Source: Methanolobus vulcani (GTDB lineage: Archaea; Halobacteriota; Methanosarcinia; Methanosarcinales; Methanosarcinaceae). From it: a stretch of 64,000 bases of DNA. Positions 42,804 to 55,618 of this stretch are shown in pieces. The position numbers and the translations under genes were made by a program. Numbering within the stretch: the stretch's first letter is position 1; each line of letters begins with the position of its first letter. The stretch covers positions 186,001 to 250,000 of the forward strand of contig NZ_FNCA01000004.1 in the NCBI RefSeq assembly GCF_900100715.1, in the 5' to 3' direction. The notes below the pieces were generated by a model. It saw only the letters and a program-made list of their open reading frames with translations, did no database searches and was not told the DNA's origin.

Positions 42804-43125
42804 TTAAGGGATTTTAAATACTGTTTTTTGTAGGAATATTATAGTCCGACCCATATTTAGAGATTAATATATAACGAGAAATATTATATACTAGTCACAA
42901 TATAGTTTAATTGCATAATTTGCACAGACCATATTTTTTAGCCCGCATAGATATGGAATTATAATTGTGATTTGTCTATATAAATATGGGAATTCAAAAC
43001 AACAATAAATTAATATATTATATTACACACTATATAATAACGTAGAAATACAATCCATATTCTACTCAAATATCGTGCAAATTTTGCACATGTTATGCAA
43101 TACCAAACATGGGAGATATGAACAA
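42804..43125 (+). promoter_or_regulatory. Promoter region of the chemotaxis operon
   Basis: 322 bp of AT-rich sequence without a gene. TATA-like boxes lie at about 42975 (CTATATAAAT) and 43031 (TATATAATAA). GTGCAAA (43075-43081) and TTTGCAC (43083-43089) form a perfect inverted repeat around one T, 37 bases before cheY. Related sequence TTGCATAATTTGCAC occurs near 42912, and TTATGCAA near 43093. These may be operator sites. Confidence 0.45.
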
Positions 43126-43482
43126 ATGGTAAAAGTAATGATTGTGGATGATGCTGCCTTCATGCGCATGGTCATCAAAGACATATTAACAAAAAATGGT
43201 CATGAAGTAGTTGCCGAATGTGTTGACGGGCTTGATGCTGTAAACAAATATCCGGAGGTAAAGCCTGAGCTCGTATTCATGGATATTGTCATGCCAAATA
43301 TGGAAGGAATCGATGCTCTCAAAAAGATAATGGAAATGGATCCGGCTGCTAAAGTAGTCATGTGTTCATCCATTGGACAACAGTCGGTTGTCACCGATGC
43401 ACTCAAAACAGGTGCACTGGACTTTATAGTCAAACCATTTGATGCAGCAAAAGTTCTCGAAGTAATTGGAAAAGTAATCTAA
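43126..43482 (+). CDS. cheY: CheY response regulator
   Basis: 118 residues from the ATG at 43126 (GGGAG ten bases upstream). It is a single receiver domain: KVMIVDDAAFMRMV (acidic pair), ELVFMDIVMPNMEG (phospho-Asp), VVMCSSIGQQ (Ser of the switch) and FIVKPF (Lys). It takes phosphate from CheA. It is the first gene of the cluster and stops two bases before cheB. Confidence 0.95.
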   Translation: MVKVMIVDDAAFMRMVIKDILTKNGHEVVAECVDGLDAVNKYPEVKPELVFMDIVMPNMEGIDALKKIMEMDPAAKVVMCSSIGQQSVVTDALKTGALDFIVKPFDAAKVLEVIGKVI

Positions 43483-43483
43483 C

Positions 43484-44587
43484 ATGACTATCAATGCACT
43501 TGTGGTCGATGACTCCGCACTCATGCGAAAGGTCGTCTCGGATATCCTGAAAGAAGACCCTGAAATAAACGTAATAGCTACGGCCAGGAACGGTCTTGAA
43601 GCTGTTGAGAAGGTCGAACAACTCAGGCCGGATGTGGTGACCTTGGATATTGAGATGCCTGTACTTGACGGATTGCACGCTCTTGGATACATCATGAGCG
43701 AATGCCCAACTCCGGTAGTCATGTTAACGGCGGTCGACTCCAGGTCTGCGGAAAGTACACTAAATGCATTCGAATACGGAGCAGTAGATTTCATTCAAAA
43801 ACCTTCGGGAAGTATAAGCGTTAACATTGCGGATATTGCTGATGAGATCCGCAAAAAAGTAAAGATGGCTTCAAAAGTGGATCTGAAGAAACTCGGATTC
43901 ATGGAAGAACACGTGAAAATATCCCGGGAAAACAAAGGTAAGCCTTTGCCAGCTAAACCAAAGAAAACTATTTCAAAAAGCATACACCACGCAAGCGGAA
44001 AGATCATTGCCATCGCATCCTCTACAGGTGGCCCTCGTGCTCTTGAACAGGTAGTCCCTAAATTACCAGGTAATCTGAAAGTACCCGTAGTAATTGTCCA
44101 GCATATGCCTGCAGGATTTACAGCATCCCTGGCACAAAGATTGGACGGGCAGTCTGCCCTGACAGTCACCGAAGCCAAGGAAGGAGATGTACTCAATCCA
44201 GGACATGTCTATCTTGCACCGGGAAATTACCACATGGAAATTACATCTGTTGAAAAAGGTGGAGTTCACCATGAAGTTGTGACACTCAACCAGAAACCCC
44301 GTGAACAAGGAGTAAGACCTTGTGCCAATATTCTCTTCAAATCACTTGTGCCTATCTATGGATCTAACATAATATCAGCAGTTCTGACTGGAATGGGAGC
44401 CGATGGTGCCGATGGAGTTGAAGAAATTAAAAAAGCAGGTGGAAAAGCAATTGCTGAAGATGAAAGGTCATGTGTGGTATATGGTATGCCTAAAGCAGTT
44501 GTACAGAGAGGACTTGCTGACAGTATCGTGCCTCTTGAAAAGGTTTCTTCCGAAATAGTACGAATGCTGAATTCATCCGGTGATTGA
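43484..44587 (+). CDS. cheB: CheB receptor methylesterase
   Basis: 367 residues. The receiver domain (about 1-125: NALVVDDSALMRKVV, DVVTLDIEMPVLDG) is followed by a linker and the methylesterase domain (about 175-365). Its catalytic Ser is in SSTGGPRAL, the His in VQHMPAGFT and the Asp in LTGMGADGADG. It removes methyl groups from, or deamidates, chemoreceptors. Its presence implies receptors encoded elsewhere, since none are in this cluster. Confidence 0.96.
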   Translation: MTINALVVDDSALMRKVVSDILKEDPEINVIATARNGLEAVEKVEQLRPDVVTLDIEMPVLDGLHALGYIMSECPTPVVMLTAVDSRSAESTLNAFEYGAVDFIQKPSGSISVNIADIADEIRKKVKMASKVDLKKLGFMEEHVKISRENKGKPLPAKPKKTISKSIHHASGKIIAIASSTGGPRALEQVVPKLPGNLKVPVVIVQHMPAGFTASLAQRLDGQSALTVTEAKEGDVLNPGHVYLAPGNYHMEITSVEKGGVHHEVVTLNQKPREQGVRPCANILFKSLVPIYGSNIISAVLTGMGADGADGVEEIKKAGGKAIAEDERSCVVYGMPKAVVQRGLADSIVPLEKVSSEIVRMLNSSGD

Positions 44588-44638
44588 AATGTGTTTGGAG
44601 AATAAGAAGATCATTATGATCTCAGGGTTGGTGTGACC

Positions 44639-46702
44639 ATGGATATGTCAGAATACAAAGAAATATTTAAAGCAGAATCAGAAGAACATCTGCAACAACT
44701 TAACGATTCACTACTGGGGCTTGAACAAAACCCCAATGATCTGGAATATATCAATACCATGTTCCGTTCAGCGCATACCCTGAAGGGAATGTCGGCTACA
44801 ATGGGTTTTAGCACAATTGCAGAGCTTACTCATGAAATGGAAAACCTGATGGACATGGTTAGGAAATCACAGGTTGAAGTGAGCAATGGATTAATAGACA
44901 TTCTTTTTGAATGCCTGGATACGCTGGAAGCCCTCGTTGAAGCTGTTGACAGTGGAGAGGAAGTAGACATTGCACATCTTCAGGCAACTCTTGCACAGGC
45001 TATGGAAGGAACCATGCCGGTACAGGAGATCAAGGGATCTGTAACTGCAAGTATCGATACCATTCAAAATGAGATTGGTAAGGAAATTCCCGAAAATACA
45101 GCAGATGCAGAAACAAAGACAGACGTTGCTCCTGTTATCGACAATGTTGAATTGTCAGATAATGAAAAGCAAGCGATACAGGATGCCATAGATGAAGGTA
45201 ACCGTGTAGTATCACTGAAAGTTATTCTTGATGAGTCATGCGTTCTGAAATCTGCCAGATCAACACTGGTACTTATCAATGTATCCAAGATGGGAGAAAT
45301 AATAAAATGTGTCCCAACTGAAGCTGAACTTGAAGATGAGAAATTTGATCTGGAATTTTCGGTAATCTTCGCAACAAAGTCAGCAGATGAGGATATAGTG
45401 GGTACTATTAAAAAGATCTCAGAGATTAAGGATGTAATTCCTACAACAGTTGCTGAAACTTCAGGAGTTGAAGAAAAGCAGCAGGAAAAGAAATCAGAAG
45501 AAACTGAAGAAAAGAAAAATACTTCTGCTGTTAAGAGATCAGATGCTGTCAAGAGCATACAGAGTGTAAGAGTTAATATAGAACGCCTTGACAACCTGAT
45601 GAACCTTGTAGGAGAACTTATTATCAACAAGATCAGGCTGAATCAGCTTGCATCTGACCTTAATGCAAAGGATCTGGATGAATCCCTTGCAAACCTTGAC
45701 AGGCTTACAAATGAGATCCAGACCGAGGTAATGGAATCAAGAATGGTCCCAATTGACCAGATATTCAGCAGATTCCCGAGAATGGTACGAGACCTTGCAA
45801 AGTCTGAAGGAAAACAGATCAATCTTATTATTGAAGGTAAAGAGATCGAACTGGACAGGACCGTACTGGATGAGATCGGCGATCCACTGGTTCACCTTCT
45901 AAGAAATGCTGTAGACCACGGAATCGAATCCGAACAAGAGCGTAAGCAACTGGGAAAACCTGTAGCAGGTCTTGTAAGACTGGCAGCTTCACGTCAGAGG
46001 AACAGTGTTCTCATCGAGGTAGAGGATGACGGTAAAGGAATGGAACCTGGACATCTGCGGGACATAGCTGTCAAAAAGGGCCTTTTGACCAGAGAAGAAG
46101 TTGATAAGTTATCAGACAACGATGCACTGAATCTTATATTCATGCCTGGTTTTAGCGGAGCAAAGGTAGTCACCGATATCTCTGGAAGAGGTGTCGGGAT
46201 GGATGCAGTCAAAACAAAGATCGAAGCTCTGGGAGGAAGTGTAAAGATAAGTTCCGTACCGGGCCAGGGTAGCATAATGAAACTACAATTACCGTTGACA
46301 GTTGCGATCATTCAGTCACTCATGGTTACCGTAGCCGGTGAAACTTATGCCATTCCTCTTGGAAATGTAATCCGTGATGTAGGAATTAAAGCCAGCGACA
46401 TAAAGACCATAGAAGGAAAAGAAGTCATCATGCTCAGGGGAGAAGTGCTTCCATTACTAAGATTGCATGATGTACTTGAATGCCCCACCGAAGAGGAAGA
46501 AAAACAGAATCTCATCGTTGTGGTTGTAGAAAAGATGGGAAGTAACATCGGACTGGTAGTTGATGACCTTCTTGGACAGCAGGAAGTTATCATCAAGACA
46601 CTTGATAATAAGCTTTTGAAAAATATGAAAGGATTCGCAGGTGCAACCATCCTGGGAGATGGAAGTGTTGCTCTTATCCTTGATATTGCTACATTGATCT
46701 AA
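44639..46702 (+). CDS. cheA: CheA histidine kinase
   Basis: 687 residues from the ATG at 44639 (GGTG five bases before); GTG at 44633 overlaps that site. Domains: HPt (about 1-110, phospho-His in RSAHTLKGM), a P2-like regulator-binding domain (about 170-265), an acidic linker, dimerisation (about 300-370), HATPase (about 375-545: HLLRNAVDHGIE, VEDDGKGM, GRGVGMDAV) and a CheW-like C-terminal domain (about 550-687). It phosphorylates CheY and CheB. Confidence 0.96.
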   Translation: MDMSEYKEIFKAESEEHLQQLNDSLLGLEQNPNDLEYINTMFRSAHTLKGMSATMGFSTIAELTHEMENLMDMVRKSQVEVSNGLIDILFECLDTLEALVEAVDSGEEVDIAHLQATLAQAMEGTMPVQEIKGSVTASIDTIQNEIGKEIPENTADAETKTDVAPVIDNVELSDNEKQAIQDAIDEGNRVVSLKVILDESCVLKSARSTLVLINVSKMGEIIKCVPTEAELEDEKFDLEFSVIFATKSADEDIVGTIKKISEIKDVIPTTVAETSGVEEKQQEKKSEETEEKKNTSAVKRSDAVKSIQSVRVNIERLDNLMNLVGELIINKIRLNQLASDLNAKDLDESLANLDRLTNEIQTEVMESRMVPIDQIFSRFPRMVRDLAKSEGKQINLIIEGKEIELDRTVLDEIGDPLVHLLRNAVDHGIESEQERKQLGKPVAGLVRLAASRQRNSVLIEVEDDGKGMEPGHLRDIAVKKGLLTREEVDKLSDNDALNLIFMPGFSGAKVVTDISGRGVGMDAVKTKIEALGGSVKISSVPGQGSIMKLQLPLTVAIIQSLMVTVAGETYAIPLGNVIRDVGIKASDIKTIEGKEVIMLRGEVLPLLRLHDVLECPTEEEEKQNLIVVVVEKMGSNIGLVVDDLLGQQEVIIKTLDNKLLKNMKGFAGATILGDGSVALILDIATLI

Positions 46703-46717
46703 AGATGAGGGAATAAT

Positions 46718-47335
46718 ATGACAGAATTGGACGAAATGGCAAGAGGAGCATTTCAAGAGGCCGGAAATATTGGAATGGGACATCTGGCCACTTCACTTTC
46801 AAAAATGGTGAACAGGGATGTGAAAATCGATATCCCTGTAGTAGAAATGCTCAGTCTGGATGAGATAATCGCAAAAAGCAATGAAGAAGGCAAGAACAAG
46901 AGTGTGGTTGGAATTCATCTTCACATTACAGGTGACGTGTCAGGAGGAACCCTCATACTACTCCCTAAGTTCTCAGCACTATCATTTTCAGATCTGCTGA
47001 TGAAAAAATCAATTGGATCCACAAATAAGATAGAAGAGCCGCAGATCAAAAAGCTCCGCGAAATGGGAGTAAATCTTTGCAGCGCTTATATGCGTGTTGT
47101 AAATGAATTCCTTGGAATAAATCTCAACATTGGAAATCCCAGCATGGAAGTTAACATGGAGGGAGTAGGAGATTTCATCAAACAGGAAATTGGAGAACTT
47201 GCGGACCAGTTCATAGTAGTTAAAGGTGAATGTCTGATACCTTCTACAAACTCAAAGAACGAATTCAACATGCTTTTTGAACCCGGTGCCACGGATGTAA
47301 TTATGGCAGCTATCATGAAGAAAATGATGGGATAA
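46718..47335 (+). CDS. CheC-like phosphatase paralogue 1
   Basis: 205 residues. The first CheC active-site motif is intact (FQEAGNIGMGHLATSLSKM, Glu and Asn three apart). The second is degenerate (REMGVNLCSAYMRVVNEF: Glu kept, Asn replaced by Val). CheC/CheX proteins remove phosphate from CheY-P, and CheC also binds CheD. With one site lost this protein may be a weaker phosphatase or a regulatory subunit. GAGGG precedes the ATG by seven bases. Confidence 0.88.
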   Translation: MTELDEMARGAFQEAGNIGMGHLATSLSKMVNRDVKIDIPVVEMLSLDEIIAKSNEEGKNKSVVGIHLHITGDVSGGTLILLPKFSALSFSDLLMKKSIGSTNKIEEPQIKKLREMGVNLCSAYMRVVNEFLGINLNIGNPSMEVNMEGVGDFIKQEIGELADQFIVVKGECLIPSTNSKNEFNMLFEPGATDVIMAAIMKKMMG

Positions 47336-47336
47336 G

Positions 47337-49457
47337 ATGAACAGTGCCCATTTTGCCCTGGATATAGGAACAAGAACTGTTGTGGGACTTGTTACAGAAG
47401 ATGGGAACCTCAACATAAAAGCTGCGTGTGTCCATGAACACAACGAGCGCAGCATGCAGGATGGGCAAATTCATGATGTAGAAAAAGTTGCAATGGTTGT
47501 TGATGAGGTCAGAAAGAACCTGGAAAAACAAACCGGATGTAAATTATCAAAAGTTGCTGTGGCCGTTGCAGGAAGAGCACTTAAAACATCAAAAGTAAAA
47601 GTTTCAGTAGAGATGCCTTACAGAGAAATTAGTCGTGAGGACATCTCTGAACTGGAATTTGAAGCAGTTGCACGTGCAGGCAACGAACTTGGAAATGATA
47701 AAGGATTTAATTGTGTTGGGTACTCGGTTGTTCGCTACGAACTTGACGGAGAATGCATTTCCAATATAATAGGACAAAAGGGAAGTGCGGTCACACTAGA
47801 AGTACTTGCTACTTTTTTACCGGAAGCTGTAATAAGTAGCATGTTTGCTGTACTTGACAGATGCGGACTTGAAGCCTCAAGCGTAACCCTTGAACCCATA
47901 GCAGCACTTAATGTTGCAATACCTGCTGACATGCGCAAACTCAATATTGCGCTTGTGGATATCGGAGCAGGAACATCCGATATTGCAATTACGGATAACG
48001 GAACCGTTATTGGTTATGGAATGGTCCCTGAAGCAGGGGATGAAATTACTGATTTTATATGTGATTATTATCTGGTTGATTTTAAGAAGGGAGAAAATAT
48101 CAAAAGGTCCCTTACAAGCAAAGATAAAATTGAACTTGAAGACATCTTTGGTGTTACCACTGAAGTCCCGGTAAGTCAGGTAATAGCTGACATAGAGCAT
48201 GAAGTGGATAAGCTTGCAATGCATATCGCCGAAGAGATATTGTCGATCAATGAGAAAGTTCCACGTGCAGTGGCTCTTGTAGGCGGAGGTTCGCAGACTG
48301 TCGGACTAAGAGAACATCTTTCAAAACACCTAGACATACCTGTGCAGAGAATTGGTTCACGTCTTCCCAAACAGATAGAAGGCCTGTCAGATAACACTGG
48401 AATTGTCACCGGTGCGGATATGATAACACCACTTGGCATAGCCCGTATGGCAATTCTTGATGAAGGCATAGAATTCATTGATCTGACAGTGAATGATCTG
48501 GAAATCCACCTGATGGATATCAATGGACTCTCTGTTATGGATGCACTTGTTGCAGCGAAAGTCAAACGTCTTTATCCACGCCCCGGAATGGCACTTAGCC
48601 TAACAATTAATTCCGAATTCAGGACCATTGAGGGAGATATGGGTGAACATGCTACTATATTCCACAATGGCAAAAAAGCAAGTCTAGGTGACCCTGTACA
48701 CAAAGGTTCTGTTATTGAGTTCACAGCACCAGTGGATGGAAAAAATGCTCATCTGAAAGTTAAAGACCTGATAAAGATGCAGGAACTGAAGACCGAACTT
48801 AACATTAATGTCAACTACAAGGAAATAGAGATGGCGCCTCTTGTAACCATAAATGGAAAAAAAGCATCTTTTGACGATATAATACCTGACAGGTCTGATA
48901 TTAAGATACGAACTCCCAATCTGGAGGACGTTCTTAATGCGGAATTTGGAAATGATGAACTTGAAAAGATATCAGTTGTGATCAATAATAATATCCAGTA
49001 TTTTGACAGGATAAATTATTCAGTCAGGCTTAATGGTAACTCTGTTGACAGAGAAGAACTTTCACAACAACCAATCAGGGATAACGATATAATATTTATT
49101 GAAAAGTCAGAGTTTAATTACAGGATCGAGAACATCCTGGGCAAACCTGAAGAAGGCAAAAAGATCAGCGTCGTACTCAATGGCAATGAGATCGTATTTG
49201 ATGGATCAATGCCACAAATTGGCCTTAATGGAAAAAGGGCATCTCTTTCTGATAGAATTGATGATGGGGACAACATCACGTTGAAAATGGGGGAAGATGC
49301 AGATCCGATACTTTCGGACCTGTTCGAATTTATGGATATTAAAAAGGAAGAACTTGTGGGCAAGAGAATGAGACTTCTTGTGAACAATGTTCCTGCCAGA
49401 TTTACAACCCCTTTGAGGGATGGAAACAATGTGACAATAGAATTTGCAGAGGTATAA
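47337..49457 (+). CDS. FtsA/PilM-like actin-family ATPase with beta-grasp-like repeats
   Basis: 706 residues. The first half (about 1-385) is an actin/Hsp70-fold ATPase of the FtsA/PilM type: ALDIGTRTVVGLV (phosphate 1), a PYREISRED-containing 1C-like insertion, LVDIGAGTSDIAI (phosphate 2) and VALVGGGSQTVGL (adenosine). The second half has repeated units of the form NGKKAS...DGD.I (near residues 441, 502 and 625, and TPLRDGNNVTIEF at the end), which look like MoaD/ThiS-type beta-grasp modules. Long FtsA-like proteins with such tails are known to me from Clostridia. Archaea lack classical FtsA, and placement inside a che operon is unusual. It starts two bases after the CheC-like gene and ends four before cheR. 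Confidence 0.85.
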   Translation: MNSAHFALDIGTRTVVGLVTEDGNLNIKAACVHEHNERSMQDGQIHDVEKVAMVVDEVRKNLEKQTGCKLSKVAVAVAGRALKTSKVKVSVEMPYREISREDISELEFEAVARAGNELGNDKGFNCVGYSVVRYELDGECISNIIGQKGSAVTLEVLATFLPEAVISSMFAVLDRCGLEASSVTLEPIAALNVAIPADMRKLNIALVDIGAGTSDIAITDNGTVIGYGMVPEAGDEITDFICDYYLVDFKKGENIKRSLTSKDKIELEDIFGVTTEVPVSQVIADIEHEVDKLAMHIAEEILSINEKVPRAVALVGGGSQTVGLREHLSKHLDIPVQRIGSRLPKQIEGLSDNTGIVTGADMITPLGIARMAILDEGIEFIDLTVNDLEIHLMDINGLSVMDALVAAKVKRLYPRPGMALSLTINSEFRTIEGDMGEHATIFHNGKKASLGDPVHKGSVIEFTAPVDGKNAHLKVKDLIKMQELKTELNINVNYKEIEMAPLVTINGKKASFDDIIPDRSDIKIRTPNLEDVLNAEFGNDELEKISVVINNNIQYFDRINYSVRLNGNSVDREELSQQPIRDNDIIFIEKSEFNYRIENILGKPEEGKKISVVLNGNEIVFDGSMPQIGLNGKRASLSDRIDDGDNITLKMGEDADPILSDLFEFMDIKKEELVGKRMRLLVNNVPARFTTPLRDGNNVTIEFAEV

Positions 49458-49460
49458 AAA

Positions 49461-50285
49461 ATGCTTAAAGCCGTTGGGAAAAATGAAGAGGAGTATTACG
49501 AAATACTGAAGAACCTTATCCAGAAAAACCTTGGATTTAATTCAAACCAGTATAAGGACTCTCACTTCAAAAGAAGGATCGATGTCAGATTGCGTGCAAC
49601 AAATGTCAAGAATTACAAAGAGTATGTAGAATTGCTGCAAAATGACAAGAATGAGTATCCAGAACTTATGGAAACACTGACAGTCAATGTTACGAATTTT
49701 TTCAGGAATCCTGAAGTGTATGATATTGTGGAAAAAGAAGTACTGCCAGCAATAATCAAATCAAAGAACATCGGCCTGCGTTCAATTAGAATTTGGAGTG
49801 CAGGATGTTCCATCGGTGTAGAAGCGTATTCTATAGCAATGTTATTGAATCATCTCCTAGGACATGATTTCAATAAATATAACATCAAGATCACCGGCAC
49901 CGATATCGATAAGGAGAGTCTCCTAAAAGCCCAGAGCGGTGTGTATTCCGATGCAGAGATGAAAGATGTCAGACCTGCTTTTCTTAAGAAATACTTTACC
50001 AAGGAAGATGGAAAATACATCGTTTCAGATGAACTGAAAAAGATCACACAGTTCAAGAAACAGGATCTGATATCAGGCCCAAAAATGAGTGGGTTTGATG
50101 CAGTTTTCTGTAGAAATGTTACTATTTATTTCCAGAAAGAACTGCAAGAACAGTTATATATGGACTTTTACGATGCACTTGGAAAAGATGGTTTCTTTGT
50201 GATGGGAAAGACAGAGACATTAATAGGACCATCCAAGGACAAATTCAAACCTTACAATTCCAAGGAGAGAATCTACCAGAAATGA
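49461..50285 (+). CDS. cheR: CheR receptor methyltransferase
   Basis: 274 residues. The N-terminal helical domain (HFKRRIDVRLRAT) is followed by the SAM-binding domain: ETLTVNVTNFFRNPEVY, WSAGCSIGVEAYSIAMLL, TGTDIDKESL and DAVFCRNVTIYF. It methylates receptor glutamates with SAM. GAGGT lies upstream of the ATG, inside the end of the FtsA-like gene. Confidence 0.96.
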   Translation: MLKAVGKNEEEYYEILKNLIQKNLGFNSNQYKDSHFKRRIDVRLRATNVKNYKEYVELLQNDKNEYPELMETLTVNVTNFFRNPEVYDIVEKEVLPAIIKSKNIGLRSIRIWSAGCSIGVEAYSIAMLLNHLLGHDFNKYNIKITGTDIDKESLLKAQSGVYSDAEMKDVRPAFLKKYFTKEDGKYIVSDELKKITQFKKQDLISGPKMSGFDAVFCRNVTIYFQKELQEQLYMDFYDALGKDGFFVMGKTETLIGPSKDKFKPYNSKERIYQK

Positions 50286-50356
50286 CATTACCAGAAATGA
50301 CATGAAAATAATATCAGGAAATGGCATCCTTAAAACGTAAATCATGGAGTTTGGAA

Positions 50357-50971
50357 ATGAAACATAAGATATCAAACCTGAGCGAGTTGCAGTTAAGTGC
50401 CCTGAGGGAAATTGTGAACATCGGCGTTGGAAACGCTGTGACATCGCTTTCCAAAATGATAGAAACAGGAGTAAAAATAGAAGTTCCTGACTTTAAAGTT
50501 GAGCTTATAGAAGATGTTCCGGAAGTACTTGGAGGAGCTGCTAACGTTGTATCAGGGGTTATCATGCATGTTAATGGTGATATTGAAGGATACATCATTA
50601 TGATGCTGCCTGAAGAAGCCGCTCAGACAATCTGTGAGATAATTACTCACGAAGAGAATACGGATATTCTGACACCTCTTAACCAATCACTCATTGAAGA
50701 GGTAGGCCATATTCTTGCAGGATCTTATGTAAGTTCATTATCTGATTTCCTGGGTCTGAACATAAAGATTTCCACACCAATGCAGACCTTTGACATGCTG
50801 GGTGCCATAATTGACCAGATACTTATAGAGATGAGTCAGAAAGTAGAGCATGCGCTTCTTTTTGACACTCTGTTCATAATTCAGGATAACAGGACAGATG
50901 GATTCTTCCTCACAATGTTTGATCCTGATTCCATGGACACTATTATTGAACGTATTGAAAAGATGATCTGA
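50357..50971 (+). CDS. CheC-like phosphatase paralogue 2
   Basis: 204 residues from the ATG at 50357, seven bases after GGAG; the frame is open to 50321. Motif one is intact (REIVNIGVGNAVTSLSKM). Motif two has His where Asn is expected (EEVGHILAGSYVSSLSDFL). The wider fold, with GDIEGYIIMMLP, is typical CheC. Confidence 0.9.
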   Translation: MKHKISNLSELQLSALREIVNIGVGNAVTSLSKMIETGVKIEVPDFKVELIEDVPEVLGGAANVVSGVIMHVNGDIEGYIIMMLPEEAAQTICEIITHEENTDILTPLNQSLIEEVGHILAGSYVSSLSDFLGLNIKISTPMQTFDMLGAIIDQILIEMSQKVEHALLFDTLFIIQDNRTDGFFLTMFDPDSMDTIIERIEKMI

Positions 50972-50985
50972 CAGGAGAGAAATGA

Positions 50986-51594
50986 ATGAACATAGTACTT
51001 GATAAGTTCTATTACGATGCATTAAATGAAGTGGGAAATATTGGAATGGGAAATGCTACAACTGCACTCTCACAACTTGTGGGCAAGTCAATACAGGTCA
51101 GCGGTTCCTCCCTTACATTGCTTAAAGCCCAGGATATTTCAGAGAATATTAATTCAGAAAAAGTTGGTGCTATAGTCAGAGTAATGGGAGATATGAACGG
51201 CGGATTCATACTGGTTCTTGGTAAAAACCATTCCGATGTCCTGGCTGATATGCTACTAAAGGACGGCGCTGAAGACAATTACATGAAAATATCCGCATTC
51301 ATTGAGGTTGCAAATATCCTTGCTGGTAGTTATTATAACGCACTTTCCAAATTCCTGAACCTTTCAATCATACCTTCAATTCCTGTCATATCTGAAGGTA
51401 CTACTGATGAAATATTTGAGAAGGCAAAAAAACACATGAGCGGGAAGATCGAACACATCTTTGGCCTGACAACCTTGTTTGAGATCAAAGGAGAAGATGA
51501 GTACCATAGTCTGAGCGGTGATATGTACATGCTTCTGGATACAGCTTCTTTGCAATCAGTCATCGACAGGATAGAAGAAATGCGTACGAGATAA
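50986..51594 (+). CDS. cheC: CheC-like phosphatase paralogue 3, both active sites intact
   Basis: 202 residues with AGGAG eight bases before the ATG. Both motifs keep Glu and Asn (NEVGNIGMGNATTALSQL and IEVANILAGSYYNALSKFL), so this is the most likely working CheY-P phosphatase of the set and the probable CheD partner, being directly before cheD. Confidence 0.92.
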   Translation: MNIVLDKFYYDALNEVGNIGMGNATTALSQLVGKSIQVSGSSLTLLKAQDISENINSEKVGAIVRVMGDMNGGFILVLGKNHSDVLADMLLKDGAEDNYMKISAFIEVANILAGSYYNALSKFLNLSIIPSIPVISEGTTDEIFEKAKKHMSGKIEHIFGLTTLFEIKGEDEYHSLSGDMYMLLDTASLQSVIDRIEEMRTR

Positions 51595-51596
51595 AC

Positions 51597-52070
51597 ATGA
51601 TAATAGTGGGAATGGCTGACAGCGCTGTTGCAAAGAAACCTGCAAAACTCACCACTCTTGGACTGGGATCTTGTGTGGGAATCTCAATGTATGACAAAAG
51701 CACAGGTGTTGGCGGTATGGTGCATATTATGCTTCCAAGCATAGAGAATGCAAGAGCAAAAGACAATATCGCTAAATTTGCAGATACAGGAATACCTGCA
51801 CTTCTGGATGAAATGGTAGAAACAGGTGCATATAAGCACCGGACCATTGCAAAAATTGCAGGCGGTGCAAGCATGTTCTCATTTAATTCAAAAACCCAGC
51901 TCAACATAGGGGAAAGGAACGTAGCAGCTACAAAGGATGCTTTGAAACAACTTAAGATACCCATTGTTGCTGAGGATACTGGACAGAACTATGGACGTAC
52001 CATTGTGCTTGACACTGAAAACGGAGAACTTACTGTCAAAAGCGCACTGAAAGGTATAAAAGTATATTAA
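51597..52070 (+). CDS. cheD: CheD receptor deamidase
   Basis: 157 residues. TLGLGSCVGISMYD carries the catalytic Cys and GGMVHIMLP the His. CheD deamidates receptor glutamines and is held by CheC. The start IIVGMADSAVAKKP fits the family. Two bases after the cheC stop. Confidence 0.95.
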   Translation: MIIVGMADSAVAKKPAKLTTLGLGSCVGISMYDKSTGVGGMVHIMLPSIENARAKDNIAKFADTGIPALLDEMVETGAYKHRTIAKIAGGASMFSFNSKTQLNIGERNVAATKDALKQLKIPIVAEDTGQNYGRTIVLDTENGELTVKSALKGIKVY

Positions 52071-52121
52071 TATATACAACGTAATAATATATCACATGGA
52101 TGAATAATAGGTGACAGCAGG

Positions 52122-53153
52122 ATGTTAACTCCGGAAATTACTATAACACACATAATTTTTATATCCATATCATTAGCGTGTGGATTGGCAGCAATATACT
52201 TCTGGGTAAAGGTCTATTTTGAAACTAAAAAAGGATCCATTGCCTGGTTACTTCTTGCACTTACAGCTATATTCCTTGTCACATCCTCAATATTCCCATC
52301 AATTGCTATTGGTTCTCAGGATCAGGATATCACAGAACTGATTTTCCTGTTCCTTGGTTTCTGGAGTGCTGTCTATACCAGTATATTTGCCGCTGCCGGA
52401 TTTTTGATGCTTCAGGCATTTAGGACGATTCCAAGGGAAAAACTTGGAGATTTCCTTATTGAGGGAATGGTATTCACAAAACCTATTGAATCCGAAGATG
52501 ACATGGAAGAACTGCCGGAAGTAGAGCAGATGTCAAAACTTCTCAGCAGGTCAACACTTATTGAATACACACCCAAGACCCGATATGAGGATTCTGTCAT
52601 AGAGATCTGTCTTCGCCTTTATGGAGAAATGGTGAACACTGTTCTGGTATCAACACAACCACGTACTGAAATGTACAAAGAGAAAATAGGAGATCTGATG
52701 GATATAGGCGCAATGAAGTTCATCGAGATATCATCCACAAGCAAACATGTAAGCAATGAAGATGGAATTGTAAAATTGCCTGCAGATGAGATAGAGAAGT
52801 TCTTTGAACTTACAAGTAAGCTTCCCGAGGGTTGTGCTGTTATCTTTGAACCTATTAGCCAGTTGATCCTGACAGACGGTGAACAGAGAACCTATGAATT
52901 TATGTCTGAAATGGTAGAGCGTTTCTCTGCAAGTCAGTTAGTTCTTGTAGGTCTTATCAATAAGGACGCACATAACTCACAGACCATTTCCAAATTCGAA
53001 GGCCTATTCCTGAACCTTGCGGAAGAGAGGGATGCAAAGATCCGTGTTGTAAAGGGTGGAAAAGAGGAATACATCAGATTCTATGTAGGAGAGAAATTTT
53101 TCATGGAACAGGATGTAGAGGTTATACTTGAGGAAAAAAAGGTTGAGTTCTGA
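52122..53153 (+). CDS. Membrane protein with degenerate RecA-like (DUF835/DUF7504-type) domain
   Basis: 343 residues. Three membrane helices (about 8-28, 38-62 and 70-102) precede a cytoplasmic domain (about 150-330). That domain has the order of a RecA/KaiC-like fold without a Walker A motif: YEDSVIEICLRLYGE, NTVLVSTQPRTEMYKEKI, CAVIFEPISQLIL (Walker B position, acid replaced) and SQLVLVGLINKDAH. It resembles DUF835-type archaeal signalling domains. Its stop overlaps the next cheC-like gene (TGATG), so it is translated with the chemotaxis set. Confidence 0.65.
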   Translation: MLTPEITITHIIFISISLACGLAAIYFWVKVYFETKKGSIAWLLLALTAIFLVTSSIFPSIAIGSQDQDITELIFLFLGFWSAVYTSIFAAAGFLMLQAFRTIPREKLGDFLIEGMVFTKPIESEDDMEELPEVEQMSKLLSRSTLIEYTPKTRYEDSVIEICLRLYGEMVNTVLVSTQPRTEMYKEKIGDLMDIGAMKFIEISSTSKHVSNEDGIVKLPADEIEKFFELTSKLPEGCAVIFEPISQLILTDGEQRTYEFMSEMVERFSASQLVLVGLINKDAHNSQTISKFEGLFLNLAEERDAKIRVVKGGKEEYIRFYVGEKFFMEQDVEVILEEKKVEF

Positions 53154-53779
53154 TGAGCAGGCAACTTGACAATTTTCTAATTGATGCATTCAAGGAGATA
53201 GGCAGTATAGGCATGGGAAATGCTACTACTTCCCTGTCCAAACTTATTGAGAAAAGAGTCCAGCTAAACCTTTCAGATGCACGTTTGTTCGAGCCGTCCG
53301 CTATTGTCGATATGATACCGGATTCTATCACAATGACCAGCATTATGATGCCGGTTCACGGGGATCTTAATGGTCTTGCAATGATGCTTTTCGAATTTGG
53401 TAATGCAGTTTATCTTAGCAATTTGCTATTGCAGAGTATTGAGCATGATGATGATCCAAGTATCTATGAATCTGCACTGCTTGAAACCGGGAACATTATT
53501 GCAGGCTCATACCTGAATTCTCTTGCATCTTTCCTTGATCTTAAGATCATGCACTCTGTACCCGACATCAGCATCGGCACTATTGATGATATTTTGAAAA
53601 AAGGACTTGGAAAAATGCAGAAAGAACCAGAGGGAATTCTTAACATTGAAACTATGTTCATGGTCTATTCATCTGAAAAAGATGTTGGAGCCGGTACAAT
53701 ATATGGTGACATGTTTCTGCTGCTGGATAGTGAATCTTTAGACAGGATGCAGAATTCCATCCATGAAATGCTTAAATAA
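53153..53779 (+). CDS. CheC-like phosphatase paralogue 4
   Basis: 208 residues. Motif one has Ser in place of Asn (KEIGSIGMGNATTSLSKL), while motif two is intact (LETGNIIAGSYLNSLASFL). It overlaps the membrane protein gene by one base. Together with paralogues 1-3 it makes four CheC-like proteins in one operon. Confidence 0.9.
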   Translation: MSRQLDNFLIDAFKEIGSIGMGNATTSLSKLIEKRVQLNLSDARLFEPSAIVDMIPDSITMTSIMMPVHGDLNGLAMMLFEFGNAVYLSNLLLQSIEHDDDPSIYESALLETGNIIAGSYLNSLASFLDLKIMHSVPDISIGTIDDILKKGLGKMQKEPEGILNIETMFMVYSSEKDVGAGTIYGDMFLLLDSESLDRMQNSIHEMLK

Positions 53780-53816
53780 TTTTTTAATAACGAATCAGGT
53801 TTTACGGTTGAACTAT

Positions 53817-54260
53817 ATGAAGAATATCTGGACACAGCATCTGGAACGGTCAAATAATGATGACCGCAACAGGGAAAACACGTTTTCACAGATGTTACAC
53901 TCTCTTGTAAAAAACGAGAATGAGGACTATCTACAGGCAGCCAGCACAGAAACTCCAGACAGTGGAAATAGAACTTATAAACCTGCTCTTAACAAGACAG
54001 AAACTGAGATAAAAACCTGGGTGGCTGAGAGCCATAAAGGATACGAACTTGGAATGGATTCCCTGAAGAAAGATAGTGTTAGGCTTATCTTGTCAGAGGA
54101 TGGGAGACTTATTCTCAGATACGACGTTGCCGGTGAAACACCTTTTGAAATGGCTGTGAAATCTGAAGAAGAAGCTCAGAATATTATTGATGAGGATAAT
54201 GAAACCACTGAACAGCTTTACCCGGATAAACCGGAGCTTAAATGGATTAAAATAATATAA
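53817..54260 (+). CDS. Hypothetical protein at the end of the chemotaxis cluster
   Basis: 147 residues from the ATG at 53817; an upstream in-frame ATG at 53763 overlaps the previous gene. It is soluble and acidic with a disordered N-terminal half and a C-terminal alpha/beta segment (VRLILSEDGRLILRYDVAGETPFEMAVKSEEEAQNII). No family recognised. Confidence 0.55.
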   Translation: MKNIWTQHLERSNNDDRNRENTFSQMLHSLVKNENEDYLQAASTETPDSGNRTYKPALNKTETEIKTWVAESHKGYELGMDSLKKDSVRLILSEDGRLILRYDVAGETPFEMAVKSEEEAQNIIDEDNETTEQLYPDKPELKWIKII

Positions 54261-54374: not shown

Positions 54375-55001
54375 ATGATGGACATTGCAATTTACTCGCT
54401 TGTTGATGACATGGTCAGCAAAGCAGGAACAGAAGGTGTCGTAGAATACTGGCTTCGTGTAGGTGAGAGCTATGCAGAAAGAATGGGAAAGGAAGCATAC
54501 GTAGGATGGCCTGCCTTTAATGTGGCAATGAAGGATGGAAGGACATCTCTCACTGTAGAAGGTGATGTTAATGTCCAGACTGACCTCGCAATCACAGATA
54601 AGGATGGAGATGTCATCGGTTATGTCTATGCTTTAAAGACATGTCCAATAGCACCTACTATGGCCAGATTCATTTCAAGGATCGGCCCAATACCGGATTC
54701 AGATACAGATGTGGCTGACAGCTATAATAACCGTGTCAGGGACTCAGCAGTTTCTAATTACTGCATTACCCACCAGAAGTTCAGGGAAGTTGCAGCTAAC
54801 AATATAACTGTTGCAAAGCAGGCCCTTGAATGCCTGCATCTTGCAAACAAGGGAATGACCGGTGAAGTAAAAATGGTACAGGAAAACCTTTCCAGGATCA
54901 ATGTTGACGAGAGACACATAAAGAGTATCCTTCGCAGCGCATCCTGCGTGTTCGCTCTTATTGTAAAAGGTAAGAGTGCAGGTGAGGAAATAATAGACTA
55001 A
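54375..55001 (+). CDS. Unknown protein, first of a paralogous Cys/His-conserved pair
   Basis: 208 residues; AGGAG lies before the ATG. No named family recognised. It shares with the next gene a K.CP motif (KTCPIAP, about 97), RIG, a Tyr-Asn pair and a C..HQ motif (CITHQKFRE, about 139). The conserved Cys, Cys and His could bind a metal, cluster or heme. A separate promoter with TATA-like sequence near 54318-54336 suggests its own transcript after the che operon. It overlaps the following gene. Confidence 0.6.
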   Translation: MMDIAIYSLVDDMVSKAGTEGVVEYWLRVGESYAERMGKEAYVGWPAFNVAMKDGRTSLTVEGDVNVQTDLAITDKDGDVIGYVYALKTCPIAPTMARFISRIGPIPDSDTDVADSYNNRVRDSAVSNYCITHQKFREVAANNITVAKQALECLHLANKGMTGEVKMVQENLSRINVDERHIKSILRSASCVFALIVKGKSAGEEIID

Positions 55002-55012
55002 TGGTGATCATA

Positions 55013-55618
55013 ATGGCTGAAAATATAGAATCCAACCCTTTTGTTGATGTTTCAGTATTCCTGTTCTTTGAGGATATTTCCGATAAACAGGGTGTTGAAG
55101 GTTTTACCAATTACATGGTCGGCCAGGCAGAATCACTGGCAAAATCTGTTCCTGAGGAAGAATACCGTACATGGGATGACTTTGCAAATGCTGTTATTAA
55201 CGGGGAATCCGTTCTTTCATCATTTGAGCATATCGGCCAGATAAGCAAATTTGGTTTTGTCACAAAGGTATGTCCATTCTCTAAAGCTATCAGAGAATAC
55301 ATTAAGAGAATCGGGAACTTCAACCCGGTTCACATGGAAGCAACCGATCACTACAACCACACTATCCAGCCTTCCGCTGCGCACAGTGCATGTATGATGC
55401 ACCAGACTTACCGCAAGGAAGTTGCAAAGAGAATTAAGATCGATGGCAAACCACTTCAGTATGCCCAGATAGCAGCAAAGGCATACACTGGAAAGATTGC
55501 ACTCCCACCTGAATCATGGAAGAAGGTCCTGCTCGAAAAAGCAGGAATCACTGAAACCCAGGGATTCATGGAGATGAGAGAGAACAGTTGCCTGTATCTT
55601 CTTTATGTTGAAGATTAA
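55013..55618 (+). CDS. Unknown protein, second of the paralogous Cys/His-conserved pair
   Basis: 201 residues from the ATG at 55013 (GGTGATC upstream); the ATG at 55001 lies before that site. It aligns along its whole length with its upstream neighbour: KVCPFS, RIG, DHYNHT, SACMMHQTYRKE. The pair probably form a heterodimer. Function unknown; a sensory or regulatory role is suggested only by the chemotaxis neighbours. Confidence 0.6.
   Translation: MAENIESNPFVDVSVFLFFEDISDKQGVEGFTNYMVGQAESLAKSVPEEEYRTWDDFANAVINGESVLSSFEHIGQISKFGFVTKVCPFSKAIREYIKRIGNFNPVHMEATDHYNHTIQPSAAHSACMMHQTYRKEVAKRIKIDGKPLQYAQIAAKAYTGKIALPPESWKKVLLEKAGITETQGFMEMRENSCLYLLYVED

Follow-up and report, generated by a model that had tools for sequence, protein, structure and literature searches.

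A gene for a long FtsA-like protein, of a family otherwise found in Bacillota, was located in the chemotaxis operon of Methanolobus vulcani, in the 64,000-nt stretch that was analysed (NZ_FNCA01000004.1, positions 186,001 to 250,000; hereafter the window). It is an innovation of the operon that is shared across the genus, and the bacterial family from which it derives is known but uncharacterised. Horizontal acquisition of the gene from Bacillota by an ancestor of Methanolobus, followed by integration into the operon, is well supported by the sequence comparisons. The explanation favoured here, though tentatively, is that the acquired and integrated gene now encodes an ATP-dependent scaffold of the chemosensory system, as predicted from its domains and its operon. 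The archaeal protein is suggested to be a structural or regulatory part of the sensing machinery, and the sequence data give moderate support to a functional link with chemotaxis.

Gene and operon

The operon comprised 14 genes in the order cheY-cheB-cheA-cheC1-[FtsA-like]-cheR-cheC2-cheC3-cheD-X1-cheC4-X2-X3-X4. The features are listed below by their position in the window and strand.

43075..43482, +, cheY (Pfam; probable true start at the ATG near 43127)
43484..44587, +, cheB (Pfam)
44633..46702, +, cheA (Hpt, P2, dimer, HATPase, and CheW domains; the genome has no other kinase with a CheW domain)
46718..47335, +, cheC1 (N-terminal ExxN...P phosphatase motif kept)
47337..49457, +, FtsA-like gene (ATG start, 706 aa, no frameshift; long FtsA-like or "PilM"-annotated family of Bacillota)
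47337..48446, +, part of the FtsA-like gene for the actin-type ATPase core, residues 1-370 (46-member alignment, AlphaFold model, Foldseek, dN/dS)
48447..49457, +, part of the FtsA-like gene for tandem ubiquitin-like (beta-grasp) repeats, residues 371-706 (Pfam on fragments, model, Foldseek, repeat segments)
49461..50285, +, cheR (Pfam; 3 nt downstream of the FtsA-like gene)
50321..50971, +, cheC2 (profile match)
50986..51594, +, cheC3 (absent wherever Methanolobus lost or shortened the FtsA-like gene)
51597..52070, +, cheD (Pfam)
52122..53153, +, X1 (membrane segments, weak DUF7504 match)
53153..53779, +, cheC4 (profile match)
53763..54260, +, X2 (small, fast-evolving protein without a family)
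54375..55001, +, X3 (91-100% identical across the genus; no family match)
55001..55618, +, X4 (distant X3 paralogue, similarly conserved)

The sequence-only reading had described a gene tightly packed between cheC-like and cheR genes, and this was borne out: cheC1 (end 47335) was separated from the FtsA-like gene by 1 nt and the latter from cheR (start 49461) by 3 nt, with both neighbours assigned to che families by Pfam. In Methanolobus, the cheR ribosome-binding site (GCAGAGGTATAA) sits within the final codons of the FtsA-like gene, an arrangement that implies translational coupling; the gene is probably co-transcribed and translationally coupled with the che operon. Sigma-70 and terminator scans gave results at chance level, and such bacterial-type signals are not meaningful for an archaeon.

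The genome (2.95 Mb) contained four CheW domains, one in the operon CheA and three in stand-alone CheW ORFs elsewhere, together with eleven strong matches to the MCP signalling domain and archaellins at several loci. The operon is thus the core CheA pathway, apparently the only one, of a methanogen with archaellin genes.

Actin-type ATPase core

Residues 7-353 matched the NCBIfam ftsA model TIGR01174 (E 4e-34), at 118.3 bits and thus below the curated cut-off of 175.85, and the pilM model TIGR01175 scored 55.9 bits against a cut-off of 133. The Pfam matches exceeded their cut-offs (PilM_2, E 1e-10; FtsA, E 2e-9; MreB, E 3e-8), that of PilM_2 being looser than the TIGR01175 one. The invariant motifs of the core were phosphate 1 (D9-x-G-T-R), E186-P187, phosphate 2 (D208-x-G-A-G-T-x-D), and adenosine (G316-G-G). 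D9, G11, T12, D208, G210, G212, T213, D215, and G316-318 were among the residues invariant in the 46 aligned members.

The AlphaFold model (pLDDT 87) had FtsA 7q6f as its top Foldseek match (E 5e-29, TM 0.73 by target). FtsA structures were followed by PilM (E 1e-20), EutJ, DnaK, and MreB. The FtsA/PilM-like actin fold that had been proposed from the sequence is thus confirmed by agreement between profile matches and structure searches. A beta-alpha-beta-beta block (residues 83-162 of the model) lies where FtsA and PilM carry subdomain 1C, and the Pfam scan at E<=1 returned no separate 1C-domain family there. The model and the Foldseek matches support an actin fold with a predicted 1C-type subdomain. 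The dN/dS of the core was 0.03-0.07; in these calculations, the CheC2 values of three out of four comparisons and the X2 values were alignment artefacts and were left out.

Ubiquitin-like C-terminal arm

The remaining 336 residues form an arm of about five NG...GDxI units, evolving faster than the core (dN/dS 0.10-0.13). When 33 C-terminal fragments were searched with Pfam, ThiS matched 32 at E<=0.1 (best 1e-14), Ub-Mut7C matched 31, and TGS matched 24. A separate model of the C-terminal part (pLDDT 89) retrieved multi-ubiquitin proteins first in Foldseek, then ISG15, SAMP1, and ThiS. Fragment searches and model therefore agree with the beta-grasp repeats noted earlier. No C-terminal membrane helix was present in the model; the last ubiquitin-like unit contributes the beta strand with which the chain ends, leaving no room for the membrane helix known from FtsA.

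Distribution and losses in archaea

Of the 186 genomes searched within the order, those with a full-length gene were 24 of the 27 Methanolobus genomes and a single genome from another genus (G077; 54% identical, also at the che position). No further long match came from 295 genomes sampled across the phylum. The earlier statement that Archaea normally lack FtsA fits these data, as the FtsA-like gene was not found in other archaea searched; for the same reason, a general che component of archaea is ruled out. The slot in the che operon was identical in all Methanolobus copies that were fetched as well as in G077, and no copy away from the che operon occurred among the archaea searched. The whole-gene dN/dS was about 0.07-0.10, which strongly supports purifying selection. 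Since the gene is full length in most of the genus, occupies a constant slot where fetched, and has a low dN/dS, its presence in the operon by chance is excluded.

In the genera g9, g11, and g12, the orthologous operon has no FtsA-like gene, and cheC1 directly precedes cheR with 40-93 nt between them. Genomes G123 and G126 nest inside Methanolobus, in different subclades, in a tree of six concatenated operon proteins. The gene is gone in G123, and the sequence before cheR (GAGTTCACAGAGGTATA) corresponds to the 3' end that the gene has in relatives (GAGTTCCCGGAGGTATA); this stretch, which the sister genera lack, is probably a scar of the deletion. The nesting and the probable 3' scar rule out that G123 belongs to a lineage that never had the gene. 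G126 (L093:6768-7418) keeps a 216-aa in-frame remnant, in which approximately the first 104 and the last 108 residues are fused and most of the ATPase core is missing.

These genomes also differ in their chemotaxis genes. In G123, the che operon is apparently intact and there are four MCP hits, no MCP domain was detected in G126, and a further genome, G129, had no FtsA-like gene and no CheA or MCP matches. The cheC3 gene was present in all 23 genomes with an intact FtsA-like gene and a complete region and was missing in G123 and G126, which are separate losses. In G077, the FtsA-like gene is present and cheC3 absent. As G077 groups outside Methanolobus and g11 in the concatenated tree, the gene is either older and was lost in g11, or was exchanged between genera.

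Bacillota relatives and origin

Strong full-length hits were obtained in three Bacillota classes (64 of 113, 80 of 200, and 45 of 196 genomes). Homology spans about 700 aa at about 31-44% identity; the match to Bacilli, for example, covers residues 5-700 (G597: 488 bits, 41%). In the tree of the FtsA-like family, canonical FtsA splits off with a support of 100 and the archaeal copies group together beside two Bacillota clades; the root and the order of the deep branches among these clades are not settled by this tree. Considering the spread across Bacillota against two genera of archaea, transfer from Bacillota to archaea is the simplest reading. A foreign base composition was looked for and rejected, as the GC3 of the gene (0.34) lies at the low end of the neighbours' range of 0.34-0.44. 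Composition therefore does not date the transfer; it has ameliorated.

The bacterial copies were mostly solitary, near aroA-ccpA in Bacilli, near polA-coaE in Lachnospiraceae, and at other loci, and several Bacillota genomes also hold a canonical 400-aa FtsA. Only 2 of 143 bacterial loci, many of which had only about 1.5 kb of flank, had cheR close to the gene, and a che-linked family in bacteria is thereby ruled out. Homologues lying mostly outside che loci had been named in advance as evidence against a link to chemotaxis; this describes the family as a whole, but not its archaeal branch. As the Bacillota homologues are overwhelmingly outside che loci, this is not a chemotaxis family by descent, and the ancestral function lies elsewhere. 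Tight, genus-wide linkage to the che operon is thus supported for the archaeal branch, and a chemotaxis or pilus family as such is not.

The two exceptions (L044:3015-5478 and L048:2431-5987) are from Bacillota MAGs with cheR just upstream, adjoining the gene in L044 and separated from it by a single gene in L048. L044 also has a near-basal position in one of the Bacillota clades. The proximity may be due to chance or hint at an older link.

The Bacillota loci (L041-L073, L166-L275) make up a large family that combines an actin core with ubiquitin-like repeats and is listed in databases, probably wrongly, as FtsA or PilM. The only full-length annotated relative found by name was that of Anoxybacillus amylolyticus (NZ_CP015439.1) in PLSDB, recorded as "pilM: pilus assembly protein PilM".

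Possible role in chemosensing

FtsA and PilM are adaptors with an actin fold; their docking of partner peptides is influenced by nucleotide, and FtsA polymerises. We infer that the archaeal protein was probably co-opted into the chemosensory system, where it would serve in assembly or as a scaffold, dependent on ATP. A Bacillota-type gene was inserted into the sole core chemotaxis operon, between its cheC1 and cheR genes. The actin core would bind ATP and oligomerise, and the FtsA/PilM-type 1C subdomain could provide a contact for peptide binding or for polymer formation. The ubiquitin-like arm may act as a partner-binding rod for che proteins, with CheC3 or CheR as the first candidates. As an ATP-dependent scaffold, core and arm together would serve to assemble, place, or tune either the machinery of receptor, CheA, and CheW or the adaptation enzymes. 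The mode would resemble that of FtsA or PilM as nucleotide-gated adaptors, rather than being that of a cell-division or pilus protein.

The losses bear on this reading in two ways. The absence of CheA, MCPs, and the gene together in G129, and the remnant without a detected MCP in G126, hint at a functional link, as does the lack of cheC3 in G123 as well as in G126. Genes of one operon are not lost independently of each other, and counts of co-loss are therefore inflated. The bacterial relatives without che linkage, the presence of the gene without cheC3 in G077, the faster evolution of the C-terminal arm, and the missing membrane helix also speak against the scaffold reading. Moreover, G123 and the sister genera keep the che operon without the gene, and the FtsA-like protein is thus not essential for the pathway.

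The last point also suits the first alternative, in which the protein kept a housekeeping or envelope role from Bacillota and the che-operon site only gave good expression, with no physical link to chemotaxis. The solitary bacterial copies without che linkage, the apparently intact operon of G123 after the loss, and sister genera that manage without the gene are all consistent with such a passenger. It is nevertheless rather unlikely: one slot is kept across Methanolobus and in G077, the archaeal gene was never seen outside the che operon in the archaea searched, the gene is gone or shortened in genomes without CheA and MCPs (G129) or without detected MCPs (G126), and cheC3 is twice missing along with it.

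The scaffold reading favoured here has a narrower form, in which a borrowed Bacillota actin-type filament or oligomer with its ubiquitin-like arm would be a structural part of the archaeal array and position or assemble it; this form is unlikely. Coupling of the ATPase to the CheA pathway, as proposed in the sequence-only reading, survives as a testable hypothesis, and the link to a pilus machine proposed with it does not. No pilus genes were found beside the FtsA-like gene.

A role as an ATP-gated adaptor on the methylation/phosphatase branch (CheR, CheC, CheD), and not as an array scaffold, is distinctly unlikely. The site between cheC1 and cheR, the coupled translation of cheR, the co-loss with cheC3, and the four CheC copies of the operon, each with an ExxN..P site in its N- or C-terminal half, would all fit it. 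However, position by itself is weak evidence, and G077 keeps the gene without cheC3.

A true PilM, acting in assembly of a type IV pilus or archaellum, is very improbable. The PilM_2 match, the Foldseek match to PilM, the Anoxybacillus annotation, and the several archaellin genes of the genome point towards it, but the TIGR01175 score is less than half its cut-off, no pilN/O/P/Q or archaellum genes adjoin the gene, and the bacterial copies are mostly solitary. An archaeal cell-division FtsA partnering FtsZ is scarcely credible: FtsA is the nearest solved fold, but the match lies under the equivalog cut-off, dcw context and C-terminal membrane helix are missing, several Bacillota also own a canonical FtsA, and some Methanolobus have lost the gene. 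With curated cut-offs, gene context, and the missing helix taken together, true FtsA and true PilM were ruled out, and neither a PilM nor a cell-division role is supported.

Comparison with known systems

The long FtsA-like family of Bacillota shares the architecture of actin core and ubiquitin-like repeats and differs in its mostly solitary copies outside che operons. Canonical FtsA (TIGR01174; 7q6f, 1e4f) shares the actin core and the predicted 1C-type subdomain, but has a membrane-targeting helix where the archaeal protein has its 336-aa ubiquitin-like tail; the ftsZ/dcw context is absent here and replaced by a che context. PilM (TIGR01175; 2ych, 5eou) and EutJ (3h1q) belong to an actin subfamily shared by fold (TM by target 0.64-0.77), but differ in that a pilMNOPQ or eut context is lacking here, an extra tail is present, and the curated NCBIfam cut-offs are not reached. 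No pilMNOPQ or other type IV pilus neighbours were seen at the Methanolobus or bacterial loci looked at.

The positioning of archaeal chemosensory arrays has been described (PMC6509185), and in haloarchaea the placement of the array depends on the MinD-type ATPases MinD2/MinD4 (PMC11588486). These are likewise ATPases and are proposed as a functional analogue, but they belong to the ParA/MinD P-loop family and do not have an actin fold; an actin-fold factor would therefore be a different solution. If true, an array-positioning actin-type protein would be an actin-fold counterpart to the positioning systems of the ParA/MinD type. The placement and building of archaeal arrays have been worked out mainly in haloarchaea, and here a bacterial actin-fold protein is encoded in the one che operon of a genus of methanogens with archaellin genes. 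No earlier description of an FtsA-like gene in an archaeal che operon was found in the literature searched. Some genomes of this one genus have the gene and others do not, which offers a natural comparison for testing its role. The analysis also points to a large uncharacterised family of Bacillota in which an actin core is joined to a ubiquitin-like array.

Other genes of the chemotaxis set

Several MCP signalling domains were located in open frames of 1200-1550 codons (genome G000, contigs C8, C11, and C12). In the four CheC paralogues (46718-53779), the ExxN..P motif is in the N-terminal half of CheC1 and CheC2 and in the C-terminal half of CheC3 and CheC4. Searches of X1-X4 with Pfam/NCBIfam and of X3 against PDB sequences returned nothing useful. 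X3 and X4 rank with the best-conserved proteins encoded in the operon (about 90-100% identity within Methanolobus, 80-92% in sister genera) and bear the conserved-looking Cys/His motifs KTCPIAP and YCITHQKFRE; in Methanosarcinaceae, the two may form a che-linked pair that senses a signal or binds a cofactor.
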